This document shows positions 11,799-42,156 of a DNA stretch of 50,192 nt, one piece after another. Numbering within the stretch: position 1 is the stretch's first letter; each line of letters opens with the position of its first letter. Under the pieces are notes generated by a model. It was not told the DNA's origin. It saw only the letters and a program-made list of their open reading frames with translations, and ran no database searches. Location of the stretch: IMG/VR virus record IMGVR_UViG_3300030012_004039, positions 53,844-104,035 of that record, one strand, 5' to 3'. The stretch is from a virus. The position numbers and the translations under genes are program-made.

Positions 11799-14700
11799 TT
11801 ACCCCAAATTTCTACCTTTAGGTTGTTTTTTATATTCAGTACCTAAGTAATCATCTATATAGAAGAACGGTTGAACATTGGTACTACCTTTTTTAATTGT
11901 TAAATGTAAATGTGGACCTAATGAATTACCTGCACCTGTAGCTCCTTTTGAACCACCTGACCAAGCAATTAATTCACCAAACTTAACTTTTCTATAATAT
12001 TGAAAGTAGCTTCCTTTATTTATAAAATTAGAATTATTTTTTAGATCAGGCCATTGCATTTTAAGAGATGGATTTTCAGGATCTGCAAAGTAATTTAAAT
12101 GTCCATAATCAGCTTTCAATCTTTCTTTCTTACCATTTACTGGAAATCCTCTACCGGTTGTTCTTGTATAATACCCGTAACCATCACCTCTATTTAATCC
12201 ACCTGAACCACCTTTTTTATCTCCATTTAATCCTTGCATTTTACAAATTAATGTTGCTTCAGGATGTATACAAAGTAATTGAGTATCGTTAGGATTATTG
12301 AAATCAGCTCCACCATGACCAGTAGGACTAGTTCTGAAGTCTTCTTTACTTCCAAACCATGAATTTACTTTATAAATATTACCTTTACCGAAAGGATTAC
12401 CTAAAGCTGCTTCAGTCGGTGCTGTTGTAGAAATTACATTAACACTTGCACGAGGTTTAACAGTAATAGTAGGAGTGTTTTCAGCATCAGGTAAAGGTCT
12501 CATTAACGTACCTATACTTGTAGTCCATCCTTCAGGATTAATTGTATGATCAACACTTGTTATTTGTAATGCTACTGTATTTTTATATCTACTAGGTAAA
12601 ATACCACCTTCATCAACTGAACGTACTCCGATAGCGTTACCCATATAAAGACCTGAAATTCCTTCTAATTCTAAACTTACATCTATAGGTATAGGAGGTC
12701 TATAAGTACCAACCTCAACAGTATTTCCGTGAATATATTTTCTTACAAATTGTTTAGCAATTTTAACACCTTCATCTACGGAATCACTTTCTTGTTTTTG
12801 AGTTGCTGATGCATTTCTCTGTGCAGCTAATAAAATTGCATACGATTGTAACAAATCTGTTTCAGCACGCTGTCTAGTTTCAACAGAGCCAGTTTCATTT
12901 CCAATTACAGTAACATTAGATAATTTTTTTAATCTATCGACTATACCAATACCATACATCTGAAACATCTGTATAGCTGAGCCTTTAGAATTATCAGAAC
13001 CTAAAGTTGAATAATAAGCCATACTAGCTAGTTCACTAGGTATTTTAGATTGTATTTTAATATCTTTAGTTATATTATCTAATCCGTTACCTGAAAAATA
13101 AAATACTCCTGTTTTTTCGTTGAACGGGCTAGGTATAGTAGATTTAATATATGCACTAGTTTTTTCACCTCCGGTATAGTTTTCATCTATAACACTGATT
13201 TGACCAGTAGTTGAGTTAGTTAATATCTTAAAACTCCATGGCTCGCCGCATGCTTTATTACATTCATTTAAAATACTTAAACAAAAACCTTTAACATCTT
13301 TAGCTTTTTCTGACATTTCTAATATCAAATCAATATTAATCATTAAATTTCTTAAGTTACCTGAAGAATAATCAATCTTACCATTTTCATTGTATCCTGC
13401 AAAAATATTTATAGCAGTATCATATCTTAACAAAGGATCAGCTTTAGCAGTAGCTATGCCTCCTTCGATTCCTACACCGTCTAACATTTCACTTGATACA
13501 TCGGAGCCGATAGGTGGTGCTTCTACGCCTTCAGCTACAGGTAATGTAGGTATAGATTCTTGTCCTGGAAGTATACATACTTCAGGGTTATGTGAACGCA
13601 AGTAAGAAGCATTTATAATATAAGTAGGTTTAAAAATCTGTAATCCTGCTGATTCTTCAGTAAGTATACTTAATTCATCATCTTCAAATTCTATATTATG
13701 TTGACTTCTTAAATTTTCTTCAGTCGCAAACATTAATTGTTTTTCCGTATCTGATAATCTATGACCTGAAAAGAATACTGTTTCTAAACTTTCATTATTC
13801 GCGTTATCATTATTGTCAGTACCTGGTGAAGAAGATTTAGGCATATATAGTTCATTTATTATATAATCTTCTACGAATCTCCATGAGACGTATGTATTAC
13901 CGTAAGCTATACTACCTATTGGAAATCCTGCATTTTCAGGAAACATAGTATATCCTAATTCACTAGAAAATGGCTTCCCATCGATACTTATATTTATTGG
14001 TGGTGCATATTTAGGATATACATCAGCATATACCATTTTATTTTCTGTCCCATCTTCTCCATAGAAAAATGGTTTATTACCTTCAGCGATTCGTTCTGAG
14101 TTTGCCCATGAGCAAAATCCCATGTTGGTTGCCATTCCAACTAACTCAGCATCTTTTTTAATAGTTTTATCTAGCTCTTTTTGTTTATCTTCTAGAAGTT
14201 GATTATCAGCATTTTTAGCTTTAGTTTTAAATCTATTTTTAATTTCAGTAGGTGATATAGCGTTTTCACCGGTAAAGGATGCAACTTCTTGATAGTTACC
14301 TGAGTCATCTTTTGTATATACAACTGTACCGGTAATTTTTTGCTGAGACATATATTTATCAGTACCCCATTGCACCTCCTTACCAGATTTATCAATTATT
14401 TTACCATCTTTTTGAGTCCACCCGTTACCTTTATTTCCTTCACTTGATACATTTTGGTTTAAAGTTGTTACACCGTCTACGCTTTCAACATAATTAACGT
14501 ATTTTTTATCTGCTGCTTTAGTTCCGTCAGGATAAAAACTTTTTTCCATTCTAGGTTTATATTTACCACCTAAATTCTGAAACATTTCTTTGATACCGTC
14601 ATCATCCCTACCCCATAATCTAGCTGCCCAGTCTTCAACAGAACCGTTATCTGTATACTCATTACTACCAGGCTTTTTTACATAAACTGAAAATTTATCA

Positions 14701-16397
14701 TTTTTTGTTACATAATAATTACCAGCACGCAATTGTGCACCAAACTTTTTTTCAATTGCAGCTATACCTCCTTTAGCTCCTCCAAAAAGCCCCTTATAAG
14801 TAAATATTTTTGATGCTCTATCTTGATCCATGTGATCAGCTAGCTTATCAACTTGAGCAAACTTATCTGTAAACTTACTCATATCAATATCACCTTTAAG
14901 TGCTTTATTTCTATTGATACCAGCTTGATCCCTTAATCCTTTGTTAGCATAACTTACATAAGCAATAACTTTATTCCACCAGTGTCTATCACCTTTTATT
15001 GGGGTTAGTACCTGTCTTTCACTACCTGCATATTCTTGTAAATAGTAATCTGTTCCTTGTTGTTCACTAATTTCAGCTTCTGAAAAAGTTATATTACCAT
15101 CAGCATCAGCTGATATTTTTATACCATAATTGCTTGTTTCTAATTTTTTAACACTTATAGTAGCTTTTTCTGAACTATCACTTCTTTTAGCTTCAACACT
15201 TTTTGGACTACCTAATCTTATTTTATTATATCTTTTTTTAGCTTCAGCTGCATCTTCAGCACCAACTTGAATATTTGCGATCGCTTTAGTTTCTTTTTTA
15301 ATATATGCATGAATAGTTCTTATGTCTGAAACTTGAACATGTTTTCCATCTGCTACTATTGCACCTCCTAAAACAAAACTTTCAGCTGGTATACCTGCTG
15401 ATAACGATCCTGGTGATATACAATCAACTCTACAATCATATCCTCCTTGACCATCGTTAGTCCAACTAAATTTAGTTACTATACCTAGTAATCCGTCATA
15501 GATACCGGCTCGAGGACCATACTTACCAAAAAATGAGTTAGCTTGATTTTCATAATAACCTATCTTAAATAATTCGGAATCATCTCCAAACTCACCAGTT
15601 AATCCAAACGATTTTTTTAATATTTCAATATTAATATTTTTCGTACTAGTTAATGGTTGACCGTCAGTAATTAATTCTAAATCGATAGGATCCATATAAA
15701 ATTGTGGATGATACCAACCCCATTCTATTAACACTGACATTCCTGGTATCATATACATCATTTCAATAGCTTCTAAATCAGCAGCATTATGAACTTTTAT
15801 ATCGAAAGATGCACGCCTAATAGTACCTAAATCTCCCTTATTAGATACTGATAGTTGTGTGATTCCAGGTATAGGTGATTGTGCATATCCTGGCGTTCGT
15901 TCACCTCTCCAACTAAATGAGTTCCTTCTATATAATCCTTTATCGGTAGCAGAGAATCCTGCATTACCGTGACTAAAGTCACCATCATAATAAAAATTAT
16001 CACCATCTTCGTCTGGAGAATGTTCGATAGCTTTACCACCATAAATAACATAATCTCTCCAATTAGGTACTGCTAAATCTTCAGGATTAGCAATAAATAA
16101 ATTTGAGTTTGTAGTAAATTCATCTTCAGGAATAGCAAATGGTGCAACACGAATCCAAGATGTTCGTTCTTGAAAATAACGATATAGAGATTCTTGATCT
16201 CTTTTACCTTCAGCTACAGTTGCAGGATCACCAGTAACAGTAAAATTAAAGCCAGAATTAAATGTTGTACCTTGCATTTGAGCTATATTAGCTGCACTAC
16301 TAACACCTTGAAATTGGTAAGCTGTTATATGTGTTTCTAACCGTTTTCGTATCAACGGATGAATCGAATCTAAAAAAATTCCTCTAAAACCAGACAT
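11799..16397 (-). CDS. Giant baseplate hub protein with C-terminal M23 peptidase
   Basis: 1532 residues, the largest gene in the window. The N-terminal half has features of phage hub/structural proteins, for example IPGMSVLIEWGWYHPQF and a later segment SVDHTINPEGWTTSIGTLMRP, like the end of gp27-type hub domains. From about residue 1334 an M23 (LytM) zinc endopeptidase follows: GHGGADF with His1361 and Asp1365, YGHLNY with His1433, and GPHLHL with His1496/His1498 complete the HxxxD...HxH metal and catalytic set. It probably replaces the lysozyme of T4 gp5, cutting cross-links of peptidoglycan at injection. A weak CGGA-type ribosome site precedes the ATG; the gp53-like gene ends one base away. 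Role in the hub is inferred from size, domain and position after the tape measure. Confidence 0.8.
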   Translation of the reverse strand: MSGFRGIFLDSIHPLIRKRLETHITAYQFQGVSSAANIAQMQGTTFNSGFNFTVTGDPATVAEGKRDQESLYRYFQERTSWIRVAPFAIPEDEFTTNSNLFIANPEDLAVPNWRDYVIYGGKAIEHSPDEDGDNFYYDGDFSHGNAGFSATDKGLYRRNSFSWRGERTPGYAQSPIPGITQLSVSNKGDLGTIRRASFDIKVHNAADLEAIEMMYMIPGMSVLIEWGWYHPQFYMDPIDLELITDGQPLTSTKNINIEILKKSFGLTGEFGDDSELFKIGYYENQANSFFGKYGPRAGIYDGLLGIVTKFSWTNDGQGGYDCRVDCISPGSLSAGIPAESFVLGGAIVADGKHVQVSDIRTIHAYIKKETKAIANIQVGAEDAAEAKKRYNKIRLGSPKSVEAKRSDSSEKATISVKKLETSNYGIKISADADGNITFSEAEISEQQGTDYYLQEYAGSERQVLTPIKGDRHWWNKVIAYVSYANKGLRDQAGINRNKALKGDIDMSKFTDKFAQVDKLADHMDQDRASKIFTYKGLFGGAKGGIAAIEKKFGAQLRAGNYYVTKNDKFSVYVKKPGSNEYTDNGSVEDWAARLWGRDDDGIKEMFQNLGGKYKPRMEKSFYPDGTKAADKKYVNYVESVDGVTTLNQNVSSEGNKGNGWTQKDGKIIDKSGKEVQWGTDKYMSQQKITGTVVYTKDDSGNYQEVASFTGENAISPTEIKNRFKTKAKNADNQLLEDKQKELDKTIKKDAELVGMATNMGFCSWANSERIAEGNKPFFYGEDGTENKMVYADVYPKYAPPINISIDGKPFSSELGYTMFPENAGFPIGSIAYGNTYVSWRFVEDYIINELYMPKSSSPGTDNNDNANNESLETVFFSGHRLSDTEKQLMFATEENLRSQHNIEFEDDELSILTEESAGLQIFKPTYIINASYLRSHNPEVCILPGQESIPTLPVAEGVEAPPIGSDVSSEMLDGVGIEGGIATAKADPLLRYDTAINIFAGYNENGKIDYSSGNLRNLMINIDLILEMSEKAKDVKGFCLSILNECNKACGEPWSFKILTNSTTGQISVIDENYTGGEKTSAYIKSTIPSPFNEKTGVFYFSGNGLDNITKDIKIQSKIPSELASMAYYSTLGSDNSKGSAIQMFQMYGIGIVDRLKKLSNVTVIGNETGSVETRQRAETDLLQSYAILLAAQRNASATQKQESDSVDEGVKIAKQFVRKYIHGNTVEVGTYRPPIPIDVSLELEGISGLYMGNAIGVRSVDEGGILPSRYKNTVALQITSVDHTINPEGWTTSIGTLMRPLPDAENTPTITVKPRASVNVISTTAPTEAALGNPFGKGNIYKVNSWFGSKEDFRTSPTGHGGADFNNPNDTQLLCIHPEATLICKMQGLNGDKKGGSGGLNRGDGYGYYTRTTGRGFPVNGKKERLKADYGHLNYFADPENPSLKMQWPDLKNNSNFINKGSYFQYYRKVKFGELIAWSGGSKGATGAGNSLGPHLHLTIKKGSTNVQPFFYIDDYLGTEYKKQPKGRNLG

Positions 16398-18073: not shown

Positions 18074-19876
18074 TTAGTATCCCGACGGTGTTTTTTCTAA
18101 ATGTAGTACTTCATTTAATTGATAACCATCGACACTTAATATTCTACTACTATTTACTGCATCAATAAGGTGATCCATTTTATCTAGTAAAGGTTGTAAA
18201 TTAATTGTAGCTTGACCTCCGCCCCCTCCAAGATTAGTACCTGCTACAACCGTGTCTTTATTATTTAATGATATAGCTCCTTCAGGTCCAAGTAACATTC
18301 TATCACCATATCCAGCATCAGACGATCCAGCAGATAATACGTCATCTCCTTTAGGTACTGCAGATTCACCTGATTTAAATAACTGGAACATTCCATATAC
18401 TGCAGCTCCTGCTAGAGGTAATCCAATACCGAAAGGTATTTGAGCTAATGTTGAAAATATAGAACCGATAGCTTTACCGACGATAGCAACAGCTCCTGCA
18501 ACGTGTTTCATAACTGCTCGACCTGCTAGCGCTAAACTTTCTTTTTGTTTAGTACTTAATAATGCCGCTGCAGTAGCTTGTGCTGCCATAGCTACTTGAA
18601 TAGCTACTTGTATAATTTGCATTGCAAGTAAAAGATCTTTATTACTAGTTAAAGCTGAAGTTTGGTCAGCTATCGAATTCTTTATATTATCATTTAAAGC
18701 AGCTACTTGGTCGAATGCAGTTTTAGCTGCCTCTCGATCTACTTGTTTTTGCTCAAATTCAGCTAATTGACCTTGACGTATTTGTTCTTCTATACCTGCA
18801 ATACGTTCAGCTTCCGCTGCATCAGCTTTCCTAGTTGCTTCAAGCTGTTTAGCATTTTTAAGTTTCATTATATCAACACCTAATGCTTCATTAAGTGCTT
18901 TTATTTGTAATTGATTTAATCCGTCTAGATCACCTGCTTGCTTAACTACTTCTTTAAGCATATCCTCGTGCTTACCTTCTATCGCTAATGCTCTAGCTTT
19001 ATCGAGATTAATATTTTTACCGGTAAGCATATTAAACTTCATTTGTTTTTCAATGCTACTTTCAACGTCTAATAAATTTTCAGACATTGATACCATATCA
19101 CTTAATTCGAATCCCATTCTTCTAGCTGCAACAGCTGCTATAGCTAATTCTTTTCCTGATTTACCTGTAGCATTTGCAAACGCTTCACCACTACTAGCTA
19201 TATCTTTCATTACTTTATCGAATGCTACTCCTGATGCTTCTGATAAAGCTTTAGTACCAGCCATTAAACCAATACCTAGATCATCGCCTGCTTCTCCTGC
19301 AGCGAACATCTGCTTACTAAATGCTGCTGCTGTATCATTACTAATACCTAATTTTTTTGCAGCTACATCTAAATTAACTATCTGATCTGCAGAAAAGTCT
19401 AAAGCACCACCGAATTGATTTTTTAATTCAGCTGCAGTAGCAGTAACTTCAGATAACGTAGTATTCATTATGTTACCTGAGTTTATAGAAGACATTAATT
19501 GTGAATTAAATTTTTCAGCTTCACTTACATTTTTACCCATTGCTTGTGCAGTATTGTTTATATTATTACTATGTCTTTCAGCTACTTTTTGAATCTCTTC
19601 CATAGCTTTTAATAATGCACCACCGAGAAATACCATACGCTGTCTAGTCATAGCTTGTCGTTCAAGTTCAGCTGACATCTGAACCTCAAGTTTCATCATA
19701 GCACCTTGAGTCTTTTGAGTAGCTTCAGTTAACTCTTTAACCTTTTTAGCTTGCTCTGCAACGTCTTTTTTAGCATCACCTGATAATTGCATAGCTTCGA
19801 GCATTTTTTGCTCTAATGCTAAACTTTCTTCACGGGCTTTAACCTGCTGTTTTAATATTTCTAAATCATCTGCCAT
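18074..19876 (-). CDS. Tail tape-measure protein
   Basis: 600 residues, mainly alpha-helical with a long N-terminal coiled coil (LEILKQQVKAREESLALEQ) and alanine/glycine-rich helices typical of tape measures. Near residues 410-505 there are hydrophobic helices (LLAMQIIQVAIQVAMAAQ and FGIGLPLAGAAVYGMFQLF) that could help channel DNA through the host membrane. It follows the tail chaperone pair and a 66-residue gene, the classical order tube, chaperone, tape measure. T4 gp29 is about 590 residues, so the predicted tail length is similar. No clear Shine-Dalgarno; the leader is A-rich. Confidence 0.85.
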   Translation of the reverse strand: MADDLEILKQQVKAREESLALEQKMLEAMQLSGDAKKDVAEQAKKVKELTEATQKTQGAMMKLEVQMSAELERQAMTRQRMVFLGGALLKAMEEIQKVAERHSNNINNTAQAMGKNVSEAEKFNSQLMSSINSGNIMNTTLSEVTATAAELKNQFGGALDFSADQIVNLDVAAKKLGISNDTAAAFSKQMFAAGEAGDDLGIGLMAGTKALSEASGVAFDKVMKDIASSGEAFANATGKSGKELAIAAVAARRMGFELSDMVSMSENLLDVESSIEKQMKFNMLTGKNINLDKARALAIEGKHEDMLKEVVKQAGDLDGLNQLQIKALNEALGVDIMKLKNAKQLEATRKADAAEAERIAGIEEQIRQGQLAEFEQKQVDREAAKTAFDQVAALNDNIKNSIADQTSALTSNKDLLLAMQIIQVAIQVAMAAQATAAALLSTKQKESLALAGRAVMKHVAGAVAIVGKAIGSIFSTLAQIPFGIGLPLAGAAVYGMFQLFKSGESAVPKGDDVLSAGSSDAGYGDRMLLGPEGAISLNNKDTVVAGTNLGGGGGQATINLQPLLDKMDHLIDAVNSSRILSVDGYQLNEVLHLEKTPSGY

Positions 19877-20128: not shown

Positions 20129-20368
20129 TTACTTTTTACGTGGAATACGTGCCTGAGCTTGTTTTATTTTTTTATTTTGTTCTTCTATATGTTCATTATG
20201 CTTTTTAATTTTATTACTAGTAAGTTTAAAATAAAATTTACGTAGATCTACAGGCATAGTATATAGCTCGGTCCATGAGAACCCAGGCATATGCTCTAAT
20301 ATATAGAACATTTGTTGGTGCAGAACGGCCCTGTAATCAGAGCCTAGGCCAAAAAAAGTTAATGTCAA
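20129..20368 (-). CDS. Tail-assembly chaperone extension, probably made by frameshift
   Basis: A 73-79 residue reading frame in the +1 frame relative to the upstream chaperone gene, overlapping it by 32 bases. The only start near its beginning is TTG at 20366-20368 with no Shine-Dalgarno; the next ATG is 20 codons in. The conserved-looking part is FYILEHMPGFSWTELYTMP and RKFYFKLTSNKIKKHNEH, a helical acidic-to-basic tail. A T7 run lies in the overlap, and slipping by +1 (or -2) there joins the frames to make a 351-residue fusion. This is the layout of the G/GT tail chaperone of many phages. Independent initiation at the TTG remains possible. Confidence 0.65.
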   Translation of the reverse strand: MTLTFFGLGSDYRAVLHQQMFYILEHMPGFSWTELYTMPVDLRKFYFKLTSNKIKKHNEHIEEQNKKIKQAQARIPRKK

Positions 20369-21185
20369 TGGGTAAGTTAATAAACTCGTGATAATCTTCT
20401 TCTGGAACGTCTACTTCAATAGTAAGATCAAAATCAGGGGTAATATCTAGAATGTGTTTTCTTAAATGAAGTGAATCTTTAGCTAATAAATAATTTTCTA
20501 CAAAATCATTAATAAAATTTTTATCATCATTACCATCTACACTTACTATAGTATTTTTTAATTCAGTAGTAGTACGTTTAGGAGGTATACCAGCTTTCTC
20601 TTGAGCAGCTAAAGTTTTTTCGATACGTTTTTGTTCTACTGCAGTACTTAAATTAAATACAATTTTCTTTTTACTAACTGGTAATACATATTCATATGTT
20701 CTAGAGTTATTATAAATACTGTAATCTAGTTCTTTAACTTTTAATTTGTTAATATCTACAGTAGTAGTAAACTCTTTACCAGTTTCAGGATGTTTTATAG
20801 TAATTGTATAATCAGATCCATAACCTAAAACTCTTGCGGCTAACATAATAGCACTTCTATCCCCTACAACTATATCATTTAAATTTACAGGCTCACCTTT
20901 ACCATTACTAACTACTAAAGCTTCATATAATTTATCTAAAGCTATTCCTTTTTTCAAATAGTTAGGGTTAGTTAAAATATCTTCATCCTTACCAGTCATA
21001 TACCTTAGTTCTAATTCACCTGATGATAATGGATTATCAATTGGATATACTAAACCTTTAGAAGGTAAAGGTATTATTTCAGTAGGAAATAATGATTCTG
21101 ATTGTTCAACTTTACTCGCTTTTTTATGAGCACCTGCTATAATTTTAGCTTTTAATTGTGCATCTGTTAACTTTTTTTCTGCCAT
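20337..21185 (-). CDS. Tail/baseplate assembly chaperone, gp26/gp51-like
   Basis: 282 residues. The segment EIIPLPSKGLVYPIDNPL and then GELELRYMTGKDEDILTN is characteristic of a T4-type baseplate assembly protein family (gp26/gp51 group) that assists hub and tube building without being abundant in the virion. The N-terminus is a charged helix. The C-terminus reads INFFWPRL and runs into the stop just past a T7 run, where the frame could shift into the next ORF. AAAGGAG lies 7 bases before the ATG. Located between tail tube and tape measure, the usual tail-chaperone position. Confidence 0.75.
   Translation of the reverse strand: MAEKKLTDAQLKAKIIAGAHKKASKVEQSESLFPTEIIPLPSKGLVYPIDNPLSSGELELRYMTGKDEDILTNPNYLKKGIALDKLYEALVVSNGKGEPVNLNDIVVGDRSAIMLAARVLGYGSDYTITIKHPETGKEFTTTVDINKLKVKELDYSIYNNSRTYEYVLPVSKKKIVFNLSTAVEQKRIEKTLAAQEKAGIPPKRTTTELKNTIVSVDGNDDKNFINDFVENYLLAKDSLHLRKHILDITPDFDLTIEVDVPEEDYHEFINLPIDINFFWPRL
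20351..20357 (-). promoter_or_regulatory. Candidate programmed frameshift site (T7 run)
   Basis: On the coding strand the overlap reads AAC TTT TTT TGG CCT AGG CTC TGA in the zero frame. Skipping one T, or slipping back two, continues as GGC CTA GGC TCT GAT, the frame of the downstream ORF. A -1 shift would meet TAG after two codons, so only +1/-2 is productive. Site is 5 codons before the zero-frame stop. Confidence 0.6.
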
Positions 21186-21279: not shown

Positions 21280-21783
21280 TTATAAATCGTATAATGCCCA
21301 GTCGTATTTAACTGTTATCGATATTTCTAATGGTTGATCATTTGACCAGTCATACTCGCCCATTTCTGTAGCTGATACAAACGCTCCTTTAAGGATAAAT
21401 CTTTCACATATATTACCTGCTGGATCTAATCCTTCTACTGTTATTTCTTTTTTATATTCATTTGGATAGCCTGCTAATCCAGTAGCTGATTGATAACCTA
21501 ACCTTACCCATGACATTACTGCAGTAGCTCCTGAAGGAATAATTGGATCATATAATGTCATCGTTATATCATTCCATTCAGCTTTACCTTGTAATTTTCT
21601 ATACGTGTTTACATGATCAAGTTTAATATCACCAAAAGTTATACCAGGTCTAGTAACTTTTTTAACTAGAAAAGAAGGTATATCAGCTATGGTCATAATG
21701 AATCTATTTGCTACCTTAGGTACAAACAACTCATCTGGGCCTGCCATAAATGATTCAGGGCTTAATTGTTCGAATTCTGGCAT
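21280..21783 (-). CDS. 19: Tail tube protein gp19
   Basis: 167 residues, against 163 in T4. It polymerises into the inner tube within the contractile sheath and conducts DNA. Visible features of the family are NRFIMTIADIPSFLVKKVTRP, GDIKLDHVNTYRKLQGKAEWND, and LYDPIIPSGATAVMSWV, ending with beta strands VSATEMGEYDWSND and ISITVKYDWALYDL. AAGGAG lies before the ATG and a perfect GATATTTATA motif lies further upstream. It follows the sheath gene and has its own terminator, which fits the high expression needed for a major structural protein. Confidence 0.93.
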   Translation of the reverse strand: MPEFEQLSPESFMAGPDELFVPKVANRFIMTIADIPSFLVKKVTRPGITFGDIKLDHVNTYRKLQGKAEWNDITMTLYDPIIPSGATAVMSWVRLGYQSATGLAGYPNEYKKEITVEGLDPAGNICERFILKGAFVSATEMGEYDWSNDQPLEISITVKYDWALYDL

Positions 21784-39750: not shown

Positions 39751-42141
39751 CTAAAACGTCATCATTCCTGCAATTTGGTTTATAGGTCCAAATGCACCTG
39801 TTAATTTATACGTTTTACCTTTATATATAAACACTAAACCTTCAGAAGGTATAATAGCTTTCCAACCTCCTAACTGATTTAATTTATTTAACTGTTGACC
39901 TAATCTATTTAGTTTTTTAAGATCTCCACCTTTTCTAACATCACTAATAGCTTTAGATACTTGTTTTTTAACATTTTGAATAGCCTTATCAGGGTTAACT
40001 GCTAGGAAGTTTTCTACATTCTTAAGTACTACAACACCTAATTCAAAAAATAAAAGTTCAAAAGGTTTCATAGTATCTTGTACTGTACCTTTATGTTTTT
40101 GTTTATCGAATGCTATAATTTTCTCTCGAAGTTCTTGATCTTCTATGTTTTTAGCATTTAATCTAAACGATTTATCAAAGAACGCCCAGCGCTTTACAAG
40201 ACCCATTTTAATTCTACTTTCTAATCCTTTAAAATTTTTATCAATATAATTTTCCCACCATGCTTGGTGATAATCAGCAAACTTATTAGAATCTTTCATT
40301 TTATATGCTGACATTAATTTTTGTAATTTTTTAGTAAAATAAGGAATCTTTTCGCCAAAATCTTGAACCGGTTTTACTTTTAGTATATGAGGTCCAATAA
40401 TACTAAAACTCTTTTGTATATTAGCATCAACTTGTTTAATCATACCTGCTAATATTCTAGCACCATCTCTTACTGTACCAACTGGAGCTCCTTTTTCATA
40501 TTTCAATACACCATGAAATTGTAGTTTAGGAGCATCATAAACTATAACGTTAGCAGATTGTGGATACATAATCTCCATATTCATCCAATTATTACCATTG
40601 TTAAATATTTTCAGTCTTTGTTTTTCGGATAATCTTGATATAGCTTTACTTAAATCTCTAAATGCATAAGTAAACGCTTTTTCTATATTACCTCTTCCTT
40701 TCCATTTAGCAGCAAACGTTTTAGCATCCATACCACCACGTTTTATATCACCGTTATTTCTTGCTGCTTTTAGTTCAGTATCCCATGTAATAAATAAATT
40801 TTGACCGTCAGTTTTTTCAGTTGCAGCCGATTCTAAATTAAGTTTACCTTGCAAAGCAATATTTATCATTTGCTTAAAATCACCAAAAGTTAAATCTTTA
40901 TCATCGAACGGATGCGACATATGTCCATAAGCGCCTCCTTCTAAAATTAATCCTTCATTCATAAGTCTAAATTTTAATAATGGTCTACCATTTATTAAAA
41001 TATCACCTTTTTCATTTTTGGTAATAGTTTTTACAACTACTTTTTTATTTTTAAATTTACCACCTAAAATAGTATCGCCTACGTTAATAGGAATTTTAAT
41101 ATCTTCATTAGTTAAAGATGGTAAATCTTTATTAGGTTCAGGATGATTAGTAGAATCTTCAGCACCTAAATAATCTAATAGTTCGTATCCTAAAGATTTG
41201 GCAAGTTTATCTTTTTCAGCTTTCCATTTTCTATATGCAGTTAAATTAGGATATGCTTTAGGTGCAATAGTTGTAGTTCTACCAGCGACGCCTGAAGGAA
41301 AATTAGATGGTTGTCTAGTAGTTGAATATCTAGAAGGTTCTCGTAATAATTCATTTTCTCCTGAAAGATAATTTAAAACTTGCATACCAAGTCTTTTTGC
41401 AATACTATCAGTAGATTGTTTATAATGACTTTGTGTTTGATACCAAGTTTGAGGTCCATCATCTACATCACCACCAATAGTTTTACTATTTTCTTTAATA
41501 ATTTTTGTAACTTTTCCAGAAGCGATAAAATCTAATATAGATTCATTTACACCTAACTTTTTAGTTATTAAATTATAATTTTTCATATGACCAAAAATAC
41601 CTTTAAATAGTCTCGCTCTATCTTTACCGTCAATAGCTTTAGCGCCAAGTGCTTGTCTAATAGCTGTACCTGACATTTCTCCGTAACCAGGTACTTTTAA
41701 ACTTACATGAGGTGCTTCTATAATGTAAGCACCTTCTTTATATCCTATTTCAGCTTTACCTTTCCATGGTCTAAAAAACTTTCCTTTCAGTCTACCTGAA
41801 TCTTTTGCACCGAACATAAATACAGCTGCTGTAGTATTAGGATCATATTTTTTAAGTAGTTCTTCAGCTTTATAAGGACTCTTTACTTTTATTACATTTC
41901 GTATTCCATAAGAATTAATAATTTTTTTCTTTTCATTGAAAGTAAAAGGAGATTTAGGAAGCTCTACTTTATCTGAAGTTGCTACCCAAGCATCTTTAAA
42001 TTTAGATTTTAAAAATTTATATGCTTGTGCATGGTGCTTACCCATAGGTTGAAATCTACCAGGATAAATAGCCACTATATTTTTTATAGTAGAATTCTCT
42101 TCAGTAATTATTTGGTTAGCAAGCCACTTTCCTAAATTCAT
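39751..42141 (-). CDS. Fusion of an NMN-adenylyltransferase-like domain and an RNA/DNA-ligase-like domain
   Basis: 796 residues from the ATG at 42139-42141, which has GGAG at the right distance; a Met four codons earlier is in frame. Residue numbers are counted from that upstream Met. First, a leader helix with LANQIITEEN. Then a nucleotidylyltransferase fold with PGRFQPMGKHH at 31-41 (the HxGH site is altered to GKHH) and MSGTAIRQAL near 160, like the (I/S)S-T-x-x-R end motif of NadM-type enzymes. A duplicated helix pair follows (residues about 250-265 and 317-332). The C-terminal half is ligase-like: EKTDGQN with Lys447, RNNGDIKRGG, MNMEIMYP with Glu527, LQFHGVL, SEGLVF with Glu771 and YKLTG with Lys783, the five nucleotidyltransferase motifs. 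The substrate is unknown; RNA end repair or NAD metabolism are both possible. Confidence 0.75.
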   Translation of the reverse strand: MNLGKWLANQIITEENSTIKNIVAIYPGRFQPMGKHHAQAYKFLKSKFKDAWVATSDKVELPKSPFTFNEKKKIINSYGIRNVIKVKSPYKAEELLKKYDPNTTAAVFMFGAKDSGRLKGKFFRPWKGKAEIGYKEGAYIIEAPHVSLKVPGYGEMSGTAIRQALGAKAIDGKDRARLFKGIFGHMKNYNLITKKLGVNESILDFIASGKVTKIIKENSKTIGGDVDDGPQTWYQTQSHYKQSTDSIAKRLGMQVLNYLSGENELLREPSRYSTTRQPSNFPSGVAGRTTTIAPKAYPNLTAYRKWKAEKDKLAKSLGYELLDYLGAEDSTNHPEPNKDLPSLTNEDIKIPINVGDTILGGKFKNKKVVVKTITKNEKGDILINGRPLLKFRLMNEGLILEGGAYGHMSHPFDDKDLTFGDFKQMINIALQGKLNLESAATEKTDGQNLFITWDTELKAARNNGDIKRGGMDAKTFAAKWKGRGNIEKAFTYAFRDLSKAISRLSEKQRLKIFNNGNNWMNMEIMYPQSANVIVYDAPKLQFHGVLKYEKGAPVGTVRDGARILAGMIKQVDANIQKSFSIIGPHILKVKPVQDFGEKIPYFTKKLQKLMSAYKMKDSNKFADYHQAWWENYIDKNFKGLESRIKMGLVKRWAFFDKSFRLNAKNIEDQELREKIIAFDKQKHKGTVQDTMKPFELLFFELGVVVLKNVENFLAVNPDKAIQNVKKQVSKAISDVRKGGDLKKLNRLGQQLNKLNQLGGWKAIIPSEGLVFIYKGKTYKLTGAFGPINQIAGMMTF

Positions 42142-42156
42142 AGTTTTCTCCATATA

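Follow-up and report, generated by a model that had tools for sequence, protein, structure and literature searches.

A probable programmed +1 frameshift in a T4-like tail assembly chaperone gene, with an apparent switch of frameshift direction in its family

The Chaperone Locus

The window, as the whole analysed stretch of DNA is called here, comprises 50,192 nucleotides (positions 53,844 to 104,035 of the 104-kb IMG/VR virus record IMGVR_UViG_3300030012_004039). The minus strand of this record carries a T4-like tail module made up of sheath, tail tube, two overlapping reading frames (ORF1 and ORF2), a 66-aa ORF, and a probable tape measure gene. The following features, in window positions, are considered.

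21280..21783, minus: tail tube protein, upstream neighbour (phrog_4542, 3.1e-25)
20337..21185, minus: ORF1, probable TAC-N, a T4 gp26-type tail assembly chaperone (TAC) or 'baseplate hub' protein, 282 aa, C-terminus ...NFFWPRL, then stop
20358..20360, minus: codon AAC, directly 5' of the T7 run; its third base is non-T throughout the +1 class, so that no U_UUU_UUU heptamer is formed
20351..20357, minus: T7 shift site, zero frame TTT TTT T(GG); candidate for a +1 slip of tRNA-Phe on UUU_U
20337..20339, minus: TGA stop of ORF1
20129..20350, minus: ORF2, probable TAC-C (T4 gp51 C-terminal domain), +1 frame, from GGC at 20350 to its stop
20129..21185, minus: predicted TAC-NC fusion, 351 aa, ...DINFF followed by GLGSDYRAVLHQQ...
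18074..19876, minus: probable tape measure protein, 600 aa, second gene downstream, assigned by position only

The 3' end of ORF1 reads ATT AAC TTT TTT TGG CCT AGG CTC TGA; the +1 frame is open across it, and the ORF2 protein contains LTLTFFGLGSDYRAVLHQQMFYILEHMPGFSWTELYTMPVDLRKFYF. An earlier note on this DNA had described a 32-base overlap of the two frames, a shared run of seven T, and an ORF2 with neither ATG nor ribosome site at its beginning. All of this was recovered on the minus strand: the sole ORF2 start upstream of T7 is a TTG at 20366-20368, which gives the 32-base overlap and has no Shine-Dalgarno sequence. The note was also right that reading AAC TTT TTT and then skipping one T joins the frames (T7 is read as Phe-Phe, and the computed translation is a 351-residue fusion), and that a -1 shift runs into TAG, which is reached within two codons. 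Its placing of the pair between tail tube and tape measure genes agrees with the phrog_4542 match for the tube and, for the tape measure, with position. The tape measure candidate had no family match in Pfam or phrog profile searches; the immuto relative has an annotated tape measure at the equivalent position.

Across the window's 39 long minus-strand ORFs, the shift site is the single in-frame instance of TTT TTT T, although in-frame UUU_Y is common (154 sites). No tRNA genes were found in the window. Elsewhere, a 1532-aa tail protein (11799-16397) has a C-terminal M23 peptidase-like domain (phrog_7767, 2e-6) and may be a large hub or baseplate protein that carries a lytic function in this domain, and an 800-aa ORF (39751-42153) gave only a weak cytidylyltransferase-like match (0.014).

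Identity of the Two Parts

ORF1 matches PF12322, 'T4 bacteriophage base plate protein', at 2.2e-8, above the family cut-off, and phrog_150 at 4.5e-9; 30 of 35 relatives also match PF12322. Profile comparison relates the window-class gp26 to the cyanophage-type gp26 (E 1.4e-10). ORF2 has no Pfam family match. Its window-class form aligns with the ORF2 of a cyanophage class in which the second part lies in the -1 frame (E 3.2e-9), and this in turn with residues 199-251 of T4 gp51 (E 7.7e-10). The cyanophage-type gp26 covers residues 6-199 of T4 gp51 (E 1.8e-14), and the TAC-N and TAC-C alignments meet at the same Phe. Compared directly with T4 gp51, the +1 class has a weak profile match (E 0.004 for ORF2), and the link runs via the -1 class.

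T4 gp51 itself, by sequence comparison, is an in-frame long form, one chain with both parts, T4 gp26 being the short form. This follows from a PF12322 match over residues 1-201 of gp51, the similarity of gp51 to gp26 (BLASTP 2e-6 for the pair), its position as sister of T4 gp26 in the gp26 tree (support 95/88), and its full-length alignment to TAC-N plus TAC-C, with the joint at that Phe. These comparisons support the identification of ORF1 as a gp26-type TAC-N and of ORF2 as a gp51-type TAC-C.

ORF1 and ORF2 were modelled with AlphaFold2 as separate chains. For the confident ORF1 model (pLDDT 91.6), the two top-ranked PDB matches are the HK97 tail assembly chaperone 2ob9, although both are weak (Foldseek E 0.7, VIA Z 4.8, 3.8 A over 89 residues), and the weakness of this fold match to a known chaperone counts against the reading developed below. 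The nearest viral models are T4-like baseplate hub or gp26 proteins. The ORF2 model consists of three helices (pLDDT 89.7), and no significant match to its fold was found among viral models.

Conservation of the Site

The comparison covers 99 homologous loci, including the window, phage records (Flavobacterium immuto, Microcystis Mel-JY01, Bacillus SP-15, Streptococcus GXN1, Rhodothermus RM378, and an uncultured huge phage), IMG/VR contigs, and MAG contigs. Relatives from the viral scan are the best 80 of 598, and single-protein scans gave one locus with the SP-15 seed and three with the Paride seed. One locus with such a chaperone pair (L096) is on a contig whose record describes a 2.8-Mb bacterial chromosome (WOR-3, CP070664), and represents either a prophage or a mis-assembly.

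In 98 of the 99 loci, TAC-C occupies the +1 frame at the corresponding position, and the conserved fusion block (FFGLxxxYRxxLHxQIF) begins directly at the shift. The earlier note had proposed comparing T7 among related phages; 94 of the 99 loci keep it at this Phe-Phe pair, against a T7 density of 0.22 per kb in the rest of these loci. Other Phe-Phe pairs in the gp26 genes number 4 in 22,530 codons, none written TTT TTT T, and only 75% of the Phe codons elsewhere in these genes are TTT, the first codon of the pair always being TTT in T7 loci. Such conservation across homologous loci rules out chance for the T7 site, and the claim of a tail chaperone pair that needs a frameshift finds support in about 100 homologous loci.

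In a rival reading, ORF2 would be a gene of its own with an independent start. The window does offer the TTG at 20368 and an in-frame ATG about 39 nt after T7, and a distinct ORF is annotated in the records of the Microcystis phage and of cyanophages, as 'gp51' in the latter. Nevertheless, a Shine-Dalgarno sequence is absent at both candidates, the block conserved across relatives starts upstream of the ATG, and T4 gp51 holds both parts in one chain. The earlier note had held that relatives with a separate, well-initiated second gene would speak against a frameshift; in 22 of the 99 relatives, the ORF2 frame upstream of the conserved block contains no ATG, GTG, or TTG at all. Independent initiation is, thus, the least probable of the explanations weighed, and very improbable in itself.

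The five loci that lack T7 (L001, L003, L004, its copy L193, which is the IMG/VR copy of SP-15, and L005) retain an in-frame TTT followed by C or T.

L001: TTT CTT TGG
L003: TTT CTA TTC
L004: TTT TTT CAC
L005: TTC TTT CGT

In the window, T7 by itself would also permit a -2 shift or RNA polymerase slippage, which counts against reading it as a +1 site. The T7-less relatives favour a +1 ribosomal slip, since in all of them tRNA-Phe can move by one base from UUU to UUY; a -2 shift or slippage of the polymerase would suit the T7 loci alone. If ribosomes instead slipped by -2 on U7, as in phage Mu (PMC5009743), one Phe would be added (NFFFGL); U7 permits re-pairing two bases back, in keeping with a first Phe codon that is always TTT in T7 loci. 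Such a slip is unlikely, because L001, L003, L004, and L005 keep UUU_Y and cannot all re-pair two bases back, and because the run, exactly 7 in 84 of 86 distinct +1 loci, exceeds 7 in only two. The earlier note had left +1 and -2 side by side; the former is favoured.

Two Directions at One Phe-Phe Pair

In the +1 class, the codon 5' of T7 ends in T in none of 84 loci, against 41.6 expected from synonymous codon usage, and in none of 34 representatives clustered at 60% identity, against 17.4. The next codon upstream ends in T 36 times for 34 expected. A 5' T would create U_UUU_UUU, a -1 heptamer, and its absence, therefore, excludes this heptamer from the +1 class.

The -1 class includes cyanophages, Methylophilales Melnitz, Delftia PhiW-14, KVP40-like phages, PA5oct-type Paride, RaK2, ZPAH1, Phosso, and 80 IMG/VR loci. 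Here, the same Phe-Phe pair is written T_TTT_TTC (TTT in Melnitz), with TAC-C in the -1 frame, and the preceding codon ends in T in 53/53 distinct loci. All 80 IMG/VR cyanophage-type loci have U_UUU_UUC with a -1 ORF2. The window has a different form, with AAC as the 5' codon, TGG as the A-site codon, and TAG within two codons of the -1 frame. Ackermannvirus T765 (L104, 3200-3410) also carries a -1 ORF2, but its site is altered (GAG ATT TTC ATT TAA) and lacks the Phe-Phe heptamer.

These patterns also bear on RNA polymerase slippage on T7/A7, by which mixed mRNAs would encode the fusion. A seven-base homopolymer can slip, and one lost base gives the ORF2 frame. Against this, four divergent relatives retain the frame relation without a long run, a run capped at 7 and an excluded 5' T are the opposite of what selection for polymerase slippage would produce, and what is conserved in the -1 sister class is a heptamer of the ribosomal type, in register with the codons. 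Polymerase slippage is, therefore, very unlikely, and ribosomal slippage by +1 is retained.

In the gp26 tree, the +1 loci come close to a single clade, flanked on either side by -1 loci (2 changes, against a shuffled mean of 14.8), the placement of RM378 and of the gut phage being uncertain due to long branches. Inside the +1 clade, a Wolfebacteria-binned contig (L097, 3780-4040) carries T9C, as GAT TTT TTT TTC, with TAC-C in the -1 frame; this is possibly a reversal of direction, or else a homopolymer assembly error. On balance, it seems somewhat favoured that T4-like phages changed an essential programmed frameshift from -1 to +1, with a return to -1 in at least one lineage (L097), the Phe-Phe codons at which it occurs staying the same. 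Direction would be set by the bases 5' and 3' of the run, NNT TTT TTC giving -1 and NN[CGA] TTT TTT T giving +1.

Proposed Mechanism and Stimulators

With a probability of about 0.85, judged from the sequences compared, the long form of the chaperone arises by programmed +1 frameshifting of the ribosome. Most ribosomes would read ORF1 to its TGA, giving TAC-N of 282 aa. In a minority, peptidyl-tRNA-Phe paired to the second UUU of UUU UUU U, with UGG next in the A site, would move forward by one base to the overlapping UUU, and reading would resume at GGC CUA ..., giving TAC-NC of 351 aa. The occurrence of slippage, its ratio, and tRNA-Phe as the slipping tRNA are what we infer from the site. 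UUU_Ynn is a known +1-prone tetranucleotide in bacteria according to a 2016 review (PMC5009743). By analogy with lambda gpG/gpGT, both chaperone forms may coat the tape measure protein, and the C-terminal domain may, as in gpGT, recruit tail tube subunits.

A candidate stimulator lies downstream of the run.

20327..20344, minus: hairpin GGCTCTG-ATTA-CAGGGCC, 7 bp, 6 nt 3' of T7, enclosing the ORF1 stop

In the window, this hairpin has a z of -2.95. At fixed geometry, 7/7 pairs form in 14 of 87 distinct loci and 6/7 in none, compared with a random-arm null mean of 1.2 and maximum of 5; the remaining +1 loci lack it. Two-sided changes occur in 5 of the 7 pairs within the 14 loci, and no slid or shuffled version comes near the real one in pairing or covariation score. 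As these 14 loci were selected for pairing, the bimodality and the random-arm null constitute the stronger evidence. We infer a stimulatory role for the hairpin in the subgroup of the window.

Two broader candidates were rejected: a general 3' hairpin in all +1 loci (22 of 87, against 6-28 in control stretches), and an upstream Shine-Dalgarno-like stimulator in the +1 class, which had no meaningful enrichment (-3.6 vs. -3.2 kcal/mol shuffled). The absence of a clear upstream Shine-Dalgarno stimulator and the presence of the hairpin in only 14/87 loci count against the +1 reading.

Relation to Known Systems

Frameshifting is reportedly kept in several T4-like groups. T4 gp26 and gp51 share with the window pair the gene family PF12322 and the same two-form logic. 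A -1 frameshift at a poly-T site has been described in T4-like TAC-N genes (Vladimirov, Gautam and Davidson 2022, Virology 566:9-15, as cited in PMC12846349), as have T4-like phages with separate short and long chaperone genes (Vladimirov et al. 2022, as cited in PMC10885494), both known here through the citing papers. Chaperone frameshifting in general, the -1 form in T4-like chaperones, and the separate gp26 and gp51 of T4 are, thus, already known. The window differs in a +1 shift at UUU_UUU_U with a 5' non-T, instead of -1 at U_UUU_UUC.

Several further systems are comparable, as described in PMC5009743. Lambda gpG/gpGT resembles the window pair in a site between tube and tape measure genes and in a short and a long chaperone made from one start by a rare frameshift, but it uses a -1 shift. 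The tail chaperones of phage Mu (-2) and the archaeal virus HSTV-2 (+1) also reach the +1 frame in a chaperone pair, although they belong to different phage groups. UUU_Y +1 slippage in bacterial constructs, Yersinia YopN-TyeA, and rare RF2 sites involves the same tetranucleotide class; in contrast, the window site is conserved across a large viral clade and has a second TTT upstream.

In the literature searched, no prior report was found of a +1 form conserved across a large clade, of the missing 5' T, of the hairpin, or of the direction switch; the 2022 study, known second-hand, may itself mention +1 cases. The +1 variant and the direction switch, thus, appear to be new. To call the locus a new case in a T4-like phage, as the earlier note did, is nevertheless too strong overall, because -1 chaperone frameshifting in T4-like groups is already in the literature and is widespread in the relatives.

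Significance for T4-like Phages

The same review names T4 as the exception to a chaperone frameshift that is otherwise widely conserved in long-tailed phages (PMC5009743). The T4 gene family would offer three solutions for one protein pair: a -1 shift, a +1 shift, and two separate paralogous genes.

Sullivan et al. (2010) described cyanophage gp51 without its first ~200 residues (PMC3037559), a short form that is explained by a -1 frameshift from gp26. In cyanophage S-RIM8 (L101, 3169-3369) and Melnitz (L102, 3161-3366), 'gp51 baseplate hub assembly catalyst' is annotated as about 45 aa from an internal ATG. The open -1 frame in these phages reaches back to the gp26 Phe-Phe, so this 'gp51' is probably a truncated frameshift extension, and the annotation in many marine and freshwater phages would be corrected. 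The two classes would also provide a natural comparison of forward and backward ribosome slippage at almost the same sequence and, if the direction switch is true, a natural two-way switch for studying what decides the direction of the slip.
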